DNA of 64,000 nucleotides from Ochromonas danica. Its lineage: Eukaryota > Sar > Chrysophyceae > Chromulinales > Chromulinaceae. The notes under the pieces were generated by a model that was not told where the DNA came from, made no database searches, and saw only the letters and a list, made by a program, of their open reading frames with translations. Below, piece by piece: positions 8,891-37,123 of the stretch. Location of the stretch: contig VKHL01000105.1 of the NCBI GenBank assembly GCA_015146655.1, forward strand, positions 39,376 to 103,375, in the 5' to 3' direction. A program made the position numbers and the translations under genes. Numbering within the stretch: the stretch's first letter is position 1; each line of letters starts with the position of its first letter.

Positions 8891-11607
8891 TTAGTTTAAA
8901 TGCTTTCGGATAGCAGAAATTGAATCGACTAATAGATCTTTCGAATCATGACCAAAAGCTATAAATAATGAGAAAAGGAGCGAACACATAAAAAGCAATC
9001 GCATCGCAAACTCCGCTCGAGAAGAGAACATGGCATGCAGCATCCGTCCCAGAAACCACCAAAATGCCACACTGCAACAATGAACAGCAAGCCAGTCAAA
9101 GGAAAGCTTTACGAAGAGTCTTGCCAAGGGAGCGTAGAACAAGCCACACAGTGCTACAAACATGGAAATTTCTGCAATAGCTCGTCTTATCAGGGAAGGA
9201 AACGGCAATTTGTATACAAACCACTCTACAACCAGAGATGGACCGCATCGCAACGATAAGACAAATAGACAGCGAGCAAGCAGAAAATATCGTCCAAACA
9301 AATGTTGTTCAGTCCATTCACTAAATAATTTAAACTCAGGCGATAAGATACCCTCCAAAGATAAGGAGAGAAGCTTTCGAACAACAGACACATTAGAACG
9401 AAACCAATCATACCAGGATCCTGGAGGTTGGACATGTGTTGAAGGCTCAGGATTGTCGACAACTGGACGAACCATCTCTTCCCCCACCATTGCTTTCATA
9501 AACTCAGTCAGTATATTTTCCAAACAGTCATTAAAATTTGTTTTGCATTGCACATCCTTTGCCCACCAAAGACCGATTGCCATCACCAAAACAGCAAAAC
9601 AAAGGGAGTCCCAAAGTCTAATCTCCCACTGGATCTGGTTGATGATAAGTTCGTTTAATTGCAAAATCTTGCTATGATCCAGTTTTTGACTGTTGTGGCA
9701 ACGAGTATTGAATGTCTCATCTTCTTTGAGAACGCTTTCACGTTTTTGAGAATAATTCTCCTCCCATGCTTCCAGATCGTAGCGCTTCTTCATATTATGA
9801 GCATATTCATTATCATTTCTCAGTCTTTCTAAGGTATCTTCATCAAGGCCCGCAGGAAAGTCCAACATCATTTGATTACCATTGCCAGGGGCTGAAAAGA
9901 CATCTTTCAGTTCCAATTGTATACTTTCACATTGATCGTCTGGCAAGCTGGTAAGATGAAAAGACGCACCCAATTGTTCCCTAATTAATGTGATTGCAAT
10001 TCCATCATGATAAAGTCTTTCGGTCATGGTAGCAGATAATAGAGCTGCCATAGTGCGCGCCTCCATAAAACGGCTCTTAGCATTGGCGATCGAATCTCGA
10101 ATGCGGAAGTTCACGTGATGCTGATAGAGATGAACCCAACGCACAACGGTGTTCAACCTGTTTTTAAGTACATTGAACATGTTATTCAATCTCACAATCT
10201 CAACTTCGTCCTCGATTTCTGAAGACCAAAGAGAACCATACTTCACGTGATCACCATGCGGACGAGGAAGATCCGTTCCACGCTCATTCAGAAATTTTCT
10301 GAATTTGCCCAATCTTGTATCGAGCTCTTTACGAAAATCTGCATTGTCTATCATCCACAAACTTGAGTCAGACGAATCCCTCATCCCTTCTATCATATCT
10401 TCGAGCAATATTCCATAATCTCTTACTACAGATGAAATGCCGTCTTTGCCAAGGGATTTATAATAGCCAAATTTCTCTTCTAACTCACTCAACTTTTGCA
10501 ACGCCTCTCTTACAGATGAAGCACGGGGACGAGCACGACCAAGTCTCATATTGCGCCTCACATTCCATACGCCATAGAGAAAGAAGACAACAGCAATCAT
10601 CATTACAGCAATCTTCATCTCCCGATTGGGATCTTAACCAAAGCAAGAATTAAACTTCTTCATCCAATTCCACTTTAATTTTCATAAAACAAATTTTCTC
10701 ACCTGGAGGGAAAGGAGGCCAAGGTCCAGGGAAAGGGGTAGGAGTAGGGACTGGCCAAACATCTTTACCAAAGCAAGAATTAACCTTCTTCATCCAATTC
10801 CACTTTAATTTTCATAAAACAAATATTCTCACCTGGAGGGATAGGAGGCCGAGGTCCAGGGAAAGGGGTAGGAGTAGGGACTGGCCAAACATCTTAACCA
10901 AAGCAAGAATTAAACTTCTTCATCCAATTCCACTTTAATTTTCATAAAACAAATATTCTTACCTGGAGGTCCACAAACGGCATAATCTTCTGCTCAAGCC
11001 AAATACACACACAAAGCAAGGCAAACAAGCTAGATGTAAAATATAACTAACTACCACATTTTGAGAATAAGTTCTCACCTGGATGCCATAGGCAATACCG
11101 TTGTTTTATGTCTTCTTTCATCTTTTCTTTTTCTAAATTCGTCTTTTCATGTTTACATTCTCCACCTTTCTCACTATCTTTACATCCCATTTCATCGCTA
11201 TCTGTTAGTTTATGGACCATCGTCTCATTGCTATCGAATTCCTCATCATCTGGCAGCTTACGGACCATCATCCATTTGTCATGAACTTCTTCTTCCTCTG
11301 GCAGTTTACGGACCTCATCCTTTTTGCCACCAACTTCACGATATTCTGCTCAAGCCAAATCCACGCACAAGGTCAGACAAGCAAGCAAGCTAGATAGATA
11401 ATATAATTAACCAGCAAATTTTGAGAACAGTTTCTCACCTGGATGCCACAAACCGACCACTTCTTCCCATTCAACTTCTTCTCGAATCATCACAACTTCT
11501 TCAACTTCCACCACGTGGACCTGCTTGCAAACATCCTCATTATCTTTACATTCTCTTTCATCACCATCTTCTGTTTGATTACCCACAGGGTCATCTATTT
11601 CATCCAT
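8891..11607 (-). CDS. Unrecognised multi-pass membrane protein with tandemly duplicated N-terminal exons
   Basis: I do not recognise a family. Six exons join in frame to about 774 residues: 11607-11439, 11345-11079, 10989-10963, 10892-10833, 10762-10703 and 10632-8891. The N-terminal half is acidic with internal repeats (VRKLPEEEE, VRKLPDDEE). Two copies of a proline-rich 20-residue segment (VWPVPTPTPFPGP...) follow. The long last exon begins with a hydrophobic helix (KIAVMMIAVVFFLYGVW), continues with charged helical sequence, and ends with about five hydrophobic segments. All inner exons are phase 1-1 and multiples of three (267, 27, 60 and 60 nt). Exons 1 and 2 share the ending LWHP and similar introns; exons 4 and 5 are near-copies including their introns. 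The true 5' end is uncertain: the frame stays open upstream of the chosen ATG, and a further 5' exon could overlap the neighbour's 5' region. Confidence 0.65.
10632..10962 (-). repeat. Tandem exon-intron duplication of about 130 bp
   Basis: A unit of one 60-nt proline-rich exon plus its roughly 70-nt intron occurs twice. A third copy of the intron follows the preceding 27-nt exon. The intron bodies (containing TTTTATGAAAATTAAAG and GGATGAAGAAG on the minus strand) differ at only a few positions. The duplication therefore looks recent and was kept in frame by phase-1 symmetry. Confidence 0.85.
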
Positions 11608-32758: not shown

Positions 32759-33202
32759 CAACAAGTCAGAATTTCTCCTTTTTTCTCTTGAATTCAATCA
32801 GATATATTGGATAGGATGATTGTCTAAGCAAGTAAGAATAGATAGACGCTAACAAGAAGATAAGAGTTGAATCACAGGTGACAATCAGCAAGGGAGGAGA
32901 AGAGACTTGTTGTCAATCTTGTTGTTGTCATGCTTGGCATGCATTGCTTGGCGAATGACACACCATTGACAACTCCTCTCAAACCCACAATTTAAGAGTT
33001 ATTAGTCGACTTTTCTGAAAGCGAAGTTGCACCACCATATTCTGTTTCTTGTTGTTGTTGCTTACACAGCATCTGCTGATGGTTACAGTATTTGTTGTTT
33101 GCTACTTACACAGTAAGTAGCTAGTCTTATGAGTGAGAAGAAAGATGATGACATCTGATGATAATAATCCTACCACCAGATTAATACTGTACCATAGAGC
33201 TT
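32759..33202. other. Region between SRPBCC gene and tandem array
   Basis: This stretch is the 5' flank of the SRPBCC gene and the left flank of the LTR-like array. It ends with the tetranucleotide GCTT directly before the first repeat. Nothing else is recognised. Confidence 0.4.
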
Positions 33203-33314
33203 TGAGGCGGGATTCAGGTACCAATTAAAGAAACTGAGGAATTGTCAGTTAAAAGAAGATGAGAACCTTTAAAGAAGAACAGGTGAGAGAGTCGGAGATT
33301 TTCCTTCTCTCTCG

Positions 33315-33341
33315 TATATTAAGGTGATTTACCTTAATATA
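33315..33341. repeat. 11-bp inverted repeat in the LTR-like unit
   Basis: The arms TATATTAAGGT and ACCTTAATATA are perfectly complementary around a 5-nt spacer (GATTT). The hairpin recurs in every A copy of the array, one per 587 bp. It could be a regulatory or RNA-structure element of the LTR. Confidence 0.7.
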
Positions 33342-33447
33342 ATAGTTGTAGGAGAACAGACGTTAATCACAATAAAAGATTCTAAATACATGACAAAGTC
33401 TGCACCCTACGTATTTACATAACTACAGAGAAAAAGCTTAAATAAAG

Positions 33448-33711
33448 TTAAGGAAATACGTAAATGCAATAAGGGTTGCAGGCAACACTACAGCTTGCCT
33501 CCTTGATCATCAACCAGAGCTGGAGAGGGTCCTTGCTCCTCTTTGCTCTCTCATAGGCATCGAATTCTTCGAGCTTGTATTGCATAGATAGATCACAACT
33601 AGCCCATAATATGTTAAACATAGTCACTTTTGCGTCTTCATACTCGCCTTTCTTCTTCACCCACTGAGTGATCGTGGCTGTGGTTTCAGCCTTGAAAATG
33701 GCTATCCTCAT
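33448..33711 (-). pseudogene. Truncated copia-type Gag fragment, copy 1
   Basis: 87 residues from the first Met. Open frame continues upstream into the preceding LTR-like unit. The core EYEDAKVTMFNILWASC ... DPLQLWLMIKEA resembles the N-terminal region of Gag in Ty1/copia elements of protists. The frame breaks off at EAS and reads straight into the next LTR-like copy (CSVACNPYCIYVFP), so the rest of gag and all of pol have been deleted. Confidence 0.6.
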
Positions 33712-34034
33712 TTGAGGTGTAACAGCCGTAGCAGCCGTGCCATCGCCTGTGACCTGACTGACTTGGTCTTGAATGGTAACATCATCGCCTGAGGCGGGAT
33801 TCAGGTACCAATTAAAGAAACTGAGGAATTGTCAGTTAAAAGAAGATGAGAACCTTTAAAGAAGAACAGGTGAGAGAGTCGGAGATTTTCCTTCTCTCTC
33901 GTATATTAAGGTGATTTACCTTAATATAATAGTTGTAGGAGAACAGACGTTAATCACAATAAAAGATTCTAAATACATGACAAAGTCTGCACCCTACGTA
34001 TTTACATAACTACAGAGAAAAAGCTTAAATAAAG

Positions 34035-34298
34035 TTAAGGAAATACGTAAATGCAATAAGGGTTGCAGGCAACACTACAGCTTGCCTCCTTGATCATCAA
34101 CCAGAGCTGGAGAGGGTCCTTGCTCCTCTTTGCTCTCTCATAGGCATCGAATTCTTCGAGCTTGTATTGCATAGATAGATCACAACTAGCCCATAATATG
34201 TTAAACATAGTCACTTTTGCGTCTTCATACTCGCCTTTCTTCTTCACCCACTGAGTGATCGTGGCTGTGGTTTCAGCCTTGAAAATGGCTATCCTCAT
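34035..34298 (-). pseudogene. Truncated copia-type Gag fragment, copy 2
   Basis: The predicted protein is identical to copy 1, including the read-through into the neighbouring LTR-like unit. Identity at protein level across all copies points to recent amplification or gene conversion. Confidence 0.6.
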
Positions 34299-34621
34299 TT
34301 GAGGTGTAACAGCCGTAGCAGCCGTGCCATCGCCTGTGACCTGACTGACTTGGTCTTGAATGGTAACATCATCGCCTGAGGCGGGATTCAGGTACCAATT
34401 AAAGAAACTGAGGAATTGTCAGTTAAAAGAAGATGAGAACCTTTAAAGAAGAACAGGTGAGAGAGTCGGAGATTTTCCTTCTCTCTCGTATATTAAGGTG
34501 ATTTACCTTAATATAATAGTTGTAGGAGAACAGACGTTAATCACAATAAAAGATTCTAAATACATGACAAAGTCTGCACCCTACGTATTTACATAACTAC
34601 AGAGAAAAAGCTTAAATAAAG

Positions 34622-34885
34622 TTAAGGAAATACGTAAATGCAATAAGGGTTGCAGGCAACACTACAGCTTGCCTCCTTGATCATCAACCAGAGCTGGAGA
34701 GGGTCCTTGCTCCTCTTTGCTCTCTCATAGGCATCGAATTCTTCGAGCTTGTATTGCATAGATAGATCACAACTAGCCCATAATATGTTAAACATAGTCA
34801 CTTTTGCGTCTTCATACTCGCCTTTCTTCTTCACCCACTGAGTGATCGTGGCTGTGGTTTCAGCCTTGAAAATGGCTATCCTCAT
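34622..34885 (-). pseudogene. Truncated copia-type Gag fragment, copy 3
   Basis: The predicted protein is identical to copies 1 and 2. No independent mutations are visible in this copy. Confidence 0.6.
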
Positions 34886-35208
34886 TTGAGGTGTAACAGC
34901 CGTAGCAGCCGTGCCATCGCCTGTGACCTGACTGACTTGGTCTTGAATGGTAACATCATCGCCTGAGGCGGGATTCAGGTACCAATTAAAGAAACTGAGG
35001 AATTGTCAGTTAAAAGAAGATGAGAACCTTTAAAGAAGAACAGGTGAGAGAGTCGGAGATTTTCCTTCTCTCTCGTATATTAAGGTGATTTACCTTAATA
35101 TAATAGTTGTAGGAGAACAGACGTTAATCACAATAAAAGATTCTAAATACATGACAAAGTCTGCACCCTACGTATTTACATAACTACAGAGAAAAAGCTT
35201 AAATAAAG

Positions 35209-35472
35209 TTAAGGAAATACGTAAATGCAATAAGGGTTGCAGGCAACACTACAGCTTGCCTCCTTGATCATCAACCAGAGCTGGAGAGGGTCCTTGCTCC
35301 TCTTTGCTCTCTCATAGGCATCGAATTCTTCGAGCTTGTATTGCATAGATAGATCACAACTAGCCCATAATATGTTAAACATAGTCACTTTTGCGTCTTC
35401 ATACTCGCCTTTCTTCTTCACCCACTGAGTGATCGTGGCTGTGGTTTCAGCCTTGAAAATGGCTATCCTCAT
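35209..35472 (-). pseudogene. Truncated copia-type Gag fragment, copy 4
   Basis: This is the last Gag-bearing unit on the right and its predicted protein is identical to the others. It is preceded, in minus-strand order, by a terminal A unit without its own spacer. Confidence 0.6.
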
Positions 35473-35995
35473 TTGAGGTGTAACAGCCGTAGCAGCCGTG
35501 CCATCGCCTGTGACCTGACTGACTTGGTCTTGAATGGTAACATCATCGCCTGAGGCGGGATTCAGGTACCAATTAAAGAAACTGAGGAATTGTCAGTTAA
35601 AAGAAGATGAGAACCTTTAAAGAAGAACAGGTGAGAGAGTCGGAGATTTTCCTTCTCTCTCGTATATTAAGGTGATTTACCTTAATATAATAGTTGTAGG
35701 AGAACAGACGTTAATCACAATAAAAGATTCTAAATACATGACAAAGTCTGCACCCTACGTATTTACATAACTACAGAGAAAAAGCTTAAATAAAGTTAAG
35801 GAAATACGTAAATGCAATAAGGGTTGCAGGCAACACTACAGCTTTCACCAGACACATTGGAGAGAAAATAAGAAAGTCCTTCGAGATTATCAAGTGTGCT
35901 CGATAAGAGATTGGAATATTGTATATATGCACTACTAAGCGAGTTATTTACAAACACACATATATATACGTTGGTGCTATCTGGTGGGAGGTTTC

Positions 35996-37123
35996 CTAGA
36001 AGTAGCGTGGCCGATCAGGTAAATCCTCCCAAAGAATGGTCTTATCTAATCCACTGGAATCTACACAACGCCAAACAAAGTCATCCAGACGTACTTTCCC
36101 TGTATCAATCAACTTGCTTTCTTTCAAAAGCATCTGATCTAAACATTGTTTATAGATAACATTACCATCACAATTGGTGAAGAAGTTATGCAAAGGTTTG
36201 ATAATATTGCAGGTATTACTACCAGGTAATTCTCTCTCTTGAGCATCCACAGCATAGTCTAAATACTTTGTCAATATATCACCACGCAAACACGGTTTTG
36301 AATCATCATGTACCATTTGAGGAAAAAATAGCTTATCAGCATGCCGAAAGCTAAAGGGATTGTTATAAGCTTCACGTCCAATCATTACACCATGTACTGC
36401 AGGTAGACTATAAGCTTCATCCTCATAATCATCATAGATATTATATCCATGTAAATGATTACTAGCTTGATCAAAAGATACAATCCCACCATTTAAGATA
36501 AACTGCATATCCGGGAACAGTTTAACAATTCGATGTACTGCTTCATATTGTAAAGGTGGAACATTACGGTTTTGTGCTGGTGATAAACCTTTTAAAATAC
36601 AATTTCTTGCATGAAGTATAACACGTCGAACACCACCATTCCGTATAGAATGTAGATAATCTACGAGATCTTGAAAGGACTCTCGACCAGTCACACCCAT
36701 ACGACACTTCACTGTCACTTCAGCATGTATTACACGTCTTTTCATCTCATAAACAATACGTCGTACAAGATCAGGATCTAACATTAATTCTGCGCCAAAT
36801 CCACCTTTCTTGGCTTTATTGGAAGGACATCCAGAGTTGAGATTAATCTCATGGAAAGTTTGATAACTATCCACCAGTTGAGCAGCTTCAGCTAATCGTT
36901 CAGGATCATTACCACCAAGTTGTACAGCTAAAGGATGTTCATCTTGGTGATGACCAAGGAATGGTTCAAGATTCTCTGGGTTATGAATCAAGGCGTTATC
37001 CATAATCATTTCTGTGTAAAGCAAAGTATGATTTGTTATTAAACGCATGAAATAACGCCAATGTCGATCTGTCCATTGCATCATAGGAGCAGTTGATAAG
37101 ATAATTGGGGAAGTCGTGGTCAT
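35996..37123 (-). CDS. tRNA-dihydrouridine synthase, DusA type
   Basis: A single exon encodes 375 residues, a normal length. The enzyme is an FMN-dependent reductase that makes dihydrouridine in the tRNA D-loop (DusA acts at positions 20/20a in bacteria). Seen are the STAPMMQWTDRHWRYFMRL start, LYTEMIMDNALIHN, QLGGNDPERLAEAA, the catalytic Cys in EINLNSGCPSNKAKKGGFGAEL, VKCRMGV, the HARNCILKGLSPAQNRNVPPL segment typical of DusA, and FILNGGI plus VMIGREAYNNPF for FMN phosphate binding. The ATG at 37123 is used. An upstream TTG frame adds 32 unlikely residues, and no organelle presequence is evident. Confidence 0.93.
   Translation of the reverse strand: MTTTSPIILSTAPMMQWTDRHWRYFMRLITNHTLLYTEMIMDNALIHNPENLEPFLGHHQDEHPLAVQLGGNDPERLAEAAQLVDSYQTFHEINLNSGCPSNKAKKGGFGAELMLDPDLVRRIVYEMKRRVIHAEVTVKCRMGVTGRESFQDLVDYLHSIRNGGVRRVILHARNCILKGLSPAQNRNVPPLQYEAVHRIVKLFPDMQFILNGGIVSFDQASNHLHGYNIYDDYEDEAYSLPAVHGVMIGREAYNNPFSFRHADKLFFPQMVHDDSKPCLRGDILTKYLDYAVDAQERELPGSNTCNIIKPLHNFFTNCDGNVIYKQCLDQMLLKESKLIDTGKVRLDDFVWRCVDSSGLDKTILWEDLPDRPRYF

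Follow-up and report, generated by a model that had tools for sequence, protein, structure and literature searches.

Between two protein-coding frames of Ochromonas danica, a series of five LTR-like units and four spacers is printed in a window, our name for the whole stretch of 64,000 nucleotides analysed, that belongs to contig C105 of a draft of 31,187,593 bases in 337 contigs. To the left, a minus-strand frame at 31754-32458 matches Polyketide_cyc (E 3.7e-10); to the right, a minus-strand frame at 35999-37225 matches dihydrouridine synthase (E 2.8e-60). The series reads (A290-B297)x4-A290 over window positions 33203-35840, with the following features.

33199..33202, no strand assigned: left-hand GCTT of the 4-bp duplication that flanks the array, AAGC when read on the minus strand (duplication test and sequence)
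33203..33492, minus strand: A copy 1, LTR-like, 290 bases, TG...CA (copy comparison)
33493..33789, minus strand: B copy 1, 297 bases, from inside a gag-like frame (copy and protein comparison)
33790..34079, minus strand: A copy 2 (copy comparison)
34080..34376, minus strand: B copy 2 (copy comparison)
34377..34666, minus strand: A copy 3 (copy comparison)
34667..34963, minus strand: B copy 3 (copy comparison)
34964..35253, minus strand: A copy 4 (copy comparison)
35254..35550, minus strand: B copy 4 (copy comparison)
35551..35840, minus strand: A copy 5 (copy comparison)
35841..35844, no strand assigned: right-hand GCTT of that duplication (duplication test and sequence)

The A copies start at 33203, 33790, 34377, 34964 and 35551, a spacing of 587, and the window matches itself at a shift of 587 across 2055 consecutive positions, which is far beyond chance. 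No copy-to-copy mismatch was found among the five A or the four B. The array pattern in the printed letters is thus real and not due to chance, and the coordinates, the period, the five 290-base TG...CA units, the four 297-base spacers and the identity described by an earlier, sequence-only reading were all confirmed. A tRNA scan of the window, run with bacterial settings on this algal host, returned none. A separate 130-base tandem repeat lies at window positions 10631-10969 (2.6 copies at 96%), and its copies differ from each other. The alga is photosynthetic, since light-harvesting genes are present; the corresponding family, PF00504, gave 47 match rows in the draft. Contig sizes, where seen, shrink with rising contig number to 10,124 bases in C337, which suggests that the draft was cut at 10 kb.

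Unit A bears the TG...CA ends of an LTR, and the outer borders of the array share four identical bases, AAGC on the minus strand. A search of the draft with A and B gave 50 match rows, mostly to A or parts of it and in many contigs. A 4-bp duplication was present at two of the seven A sites tested, namely the outer borders in the window and a single A copy in C45 with GTGA on either side; the other five sites (C332, C317, C57, C304 and C298) had none, C57 and C304 having flanks in common, and this count left out C116, C124, C135 and C261 and comes from a draft that may have mis-joined flanks. The string GTGAGAAAGGGTAG, which we read as PPT-like, was found before A-like copies in C298, C261 and C332 and at the C116 joints, and is absent before the A copies of the window, that is, at the end of B. 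On the other side, A is followed by GGCGATGATG, and a search by simple TGG motif, without tRNA comparison, gave no primer-site-like TGG start within the first bases among the A flanks listed. On balance, A is most readily understood as the LTR of a repeated family. The proposal that the array derives from a TRIM-like LTR element therefore stands in its LTR part, given the TG...CA ends, the 4-bp flanks here and at C45 and the spread over many contigs, whereas the TRIM part is incomplete, B coming from inside a gag-like frame and no TGG-type primer site lying beside A.

The sequence-only reading had also called for a genome-wide search for single insertions and a full-length parent. A single copy of A was seen at C45; a complete parent element was not found, with 11 RVT_2 places in the draft of which only C304 was read closely. 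In C304 (locus L012, 544-2962), an A copy is continued directly by an open frame of 716 residues that carries an RVT_2 domain; the same copy sits inside another LTR-like fragment. Through this frame, a link of A to a Copia-type pol is possible. Reverse transcriptase domains were also seen in two very long open frames, of 3540 residues (C312:2055-2780) and 4335 residues (C297:13927-14637). Two other identities for A were considered and dropped. A retrozyme or other known RNA was set aside because an Rfam scan of window positions 32900-36000 gave only mir-297, whose 21.2 bits fall below the gathering score of 90. A spliced introner-like insert was suggested by some joints that read CAG|G, and was dropped because the copy in the window is placed between gene frames and ends as an LTR does.

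Unit B proved to be an inner part of a longer frame. Beyond the four window copies, its protein matched only two places in the draft, C59 (83%, residues 28-99) and C114 (66%, residues 2-62). In the C114 relative, about 138 codons of open frame precede the point aligned with B residue 2, and in the C59 relative the open frame extends about 110 codons past the end of B. Since related frames continue beyond both of its ends, B is an internal slice of a gag-like frame, and not the beginning of gag, as had been suggested. In the array B is bounded by complete A ends on both sides, and no other draft contig holds it save these two diverged relatives, which lack A at the same joints. The label copia-type gag gained no support from searches: Pfam at E 0.01 gave no family for the B and C59 frames; with the limit raised to E 10, PH_13 (E 0.12) was the single match of the B frame, and neither the C59 nor the C114 frame had any. 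No PDB relative of the C59 frame was found at E 10. The putative gag identity of B thus rests on reading the motif. In C59, a gag-like frame is followed by its own inverted copy (locus L020, 2960-3150 and 3214-3404; 191 bases, 99%, 63 bases apart).

Other perfect arrays, met by chance or through A and so not a census, are present in the draft. A second A-bearing array in C298 (locus L009, 1618-4755) has a unit of 627 in 5.0 perfect copies, with 2511 positions matched; the 134 bases at the start of its spacer are found again in C205, C143, C132 and elsewhere. In C135, a unit of 468 occurs in 3.3 perfect copies with 1079 positions matched, and a 1068-base inverted repeat (locus L011, 1-1068 and 3374-4441, 100% complementary) flanks this array; the inverted repeat could be a fold-back or amplification artefact. 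A unit of 2407 that carries a light-harvesting gene is printed in 3.8 copies in C224 (8240-17292), with 0 mismatches over 6646 positions. It is listed here because words of 77 bases could not have counted its copies either, and it may be a true, young gene array or the product of the same assembly effect. Of the A copies in C116, two agree over 376 positions and a third differs, so that this array may be real.

The ends of contigs inside A gave a clue to how the draft was built. De Bruijn contigs end with a fixed overlap at repeat borders. Among contigs picked for matching A, which are not a random sample, we found 12 ends within near-identical A, eight of which stop after exactly 77 bases of it. 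Five of these hold A bases 1-77 (the head of C261 and the tails of C330, C283, C75 and C7), and three hold bases 214-290 (the tails of C320, C180 and C156); the remaining four hold 76 (C270), 74 (C248), 142 (C276) and 290 bases (C304). The end of C262 is a diverged A-like copy that stops at the position of A base 77. In a second repeat, which is part of the C298 spacer, the head of C333 and the tail of C150 also end with exactly 77 bases, and C246 ends with 79. Two further heads were tried as a check: no second place was found for that of C312, and that of C90 shares 96 bases, not 77, with the end of C41. A single fixed word length would account for the ends of 74, 76, 79, 96 and 142 bases only with additional assumptions. 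From the recurrent 77-base ends we infer that the draft came from a de Bruijn assembler working at k=77, and that it collapsed A into one repeat. Some contig heads (C150, C210 and C337) begin with simple repeats, as would fit short reads.

Words of such lengths tell little about copy number. All array words of 77, 78, 100, 150 and 250 bases are present in a single host-A-B-A-host pass, and 296 bases is the first length at which one pass can be told from four. Since contigs end at 77 bases and no tested word of up to 250 needs more than one pass, the identity of the copies is uninformative, and identical copies are what such a graph has to print, regardless of the real state of the genome. With read pairs longer than A, B might be seen beside B, but four copies could not be counted. 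The sequence-only reading had offered very recent amplification, active homogenisation or an assembly artefact as the source of the exact identity; the fixed 77-base ends and the fit of words up to 250 to one pass favour the last.

The locus is therefore probably one LTR insertion, either solo A or A-B-A, whose copy number was inflated or left undefined by the assembly. Under this reading, a single LTR-type insertion lies between the two host genes, marked by the 4-bp duplication, with A as the likely LTR of a repeated family. In a draft made from short words, with k=77 as the contig ends indicate, near-identical A copies would share one graph edge, B would form the edge returning from the end of A to its start, and the array would be the A-B loop written out four times. 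The true locus would most likely be a solo A or one A-B-A. The origin of B is the weakest step: elements of the A family probably landed in, or recombined with, a gag-like gene of another retroelement, which we propose as the reason why complete A ends bound B on both sides. The matching outer GCTT fits a single insertion event. The printed pattern is weak evidence for four real tandem units, and the perfect identity most likely carries no biological message, the array being most likely an ordinary repeat insertion.

It is possible, although unlikely, that the genome holds a real LTR-internal tandem array of five LTRs and four internal parts, built by unequal recombination between LTRs held in common or from concatenated transcripts, and so young or homogenised that its copies are identical. 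Its layout equals that of the maize Zma-SMART L5I4 tandem TRIM array, which also has five LTRs, four internal parts and one flanking duplication around the whole (PMC4717578); the same source reports TA-TRIMs from 35 of 43 plant genomes, some of them validated by PCR. The Cassandra elements build such arrays in plants, with LTRs and internal domains in series, and short-read assemblies limit the view of the long ones (PMC7215508). The single matching 4-bp pair at the outer borders would also follow from one insertion and later expansion. In addition, the four passes exceed what a benchmarked assembler writes for a loop: when given simulated perfect tandem repeats, SPAdes 3.11 never printed more than two copies (PMC6052550), so over-counting was not its usual fault in that benchmark, which counts against the artefact reading. 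The present loop resembles the de Bruijn tandem-repeat loop of that source in having one entry, one exit and a pass number that k-mers do not give, and differs from the benchmarked one in its four passes against at most two. Four passes may mean that B is truly present several times. Because of the validated maize arrays, the Cassandra arrays, the SPAdes limit and the contig ends that depart from 77, the real array is still given some probability. Several observations weigh against it. No word shorter than 296 bases requires it, A is collapsed in the draft as judged by the contig ends, and the neighbouring perfect arrays with the same LTR carry unrelated spacers. The TRIM layout of LTRs around a short internal domain is there in print, again without support from words below 296 bases, and its internal part is an inner gag-like slice in which no primer site was seen, unlike in Zma-SMART. 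The maize array was, moreover, confirmed by PCR and sequencing, whereas the copy number here is the one printed in the draft; and unlike Cassandra, A gave no 5S-type match by Rfam. More doubtful still is a specific form of this array, a young L5I4-type series whose repeated part is a captured gag-like slice, with the arrays of C298 and C135 as sisters carrying other slices.

Two remaining explanations appear less probable than these. A-B-A could be a small non-autonomous element at several dispersed sites, merged by the graph and printed here as an array. Many A flanks still end unresolved at contig ends, and several identical copies would collapse B into one high-depth edge; however, B occurs elsewhere only as two diverged relatives without A at the joints (collapse would hide copies), the A flanks listed show no TGG-type start, and the end of B lacks the PPT-like string of C298, C261 and C332, so that we consider this explanation improbable. 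Very improbable, in our judgement, is an A-B loop that came from extrachromosomal circles, made of the LTR and part of gag, by self-integration of element cDNA. The AAGC at the end of B abuts the start of A in the manner expected of a self-integration joint, and LTR-derived circles are reported from yeast and plants. Such circles should hold the primer site and the gag start beside the LTR, whereas B begins about 138 codons inside the related frame.

Our preferred reading, one LTR insertion with a copy number inflated or undefined by the assembly, illustrates how a 'perfect' retrotransposon array resembling recent amplification can appear in a draft assembly. Among titles and abstract openings, we found no LTR array described in the literature as an assembly loop. 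The lengths of contig ends at a repeat border and the shortest copy-separating word can be obtained from the assembly alone, and can be used to screen other drafts. As a feature, the array is not established; if real, it would belong to a known type and be unusual in its internal part. Should it prove true, tandem LTR arrays would extend to an alga, and, if the doubtful captured-slice form were the right one, the A family would be an LTR family in which short segments, once captured, are made into perfect tandem arrays.
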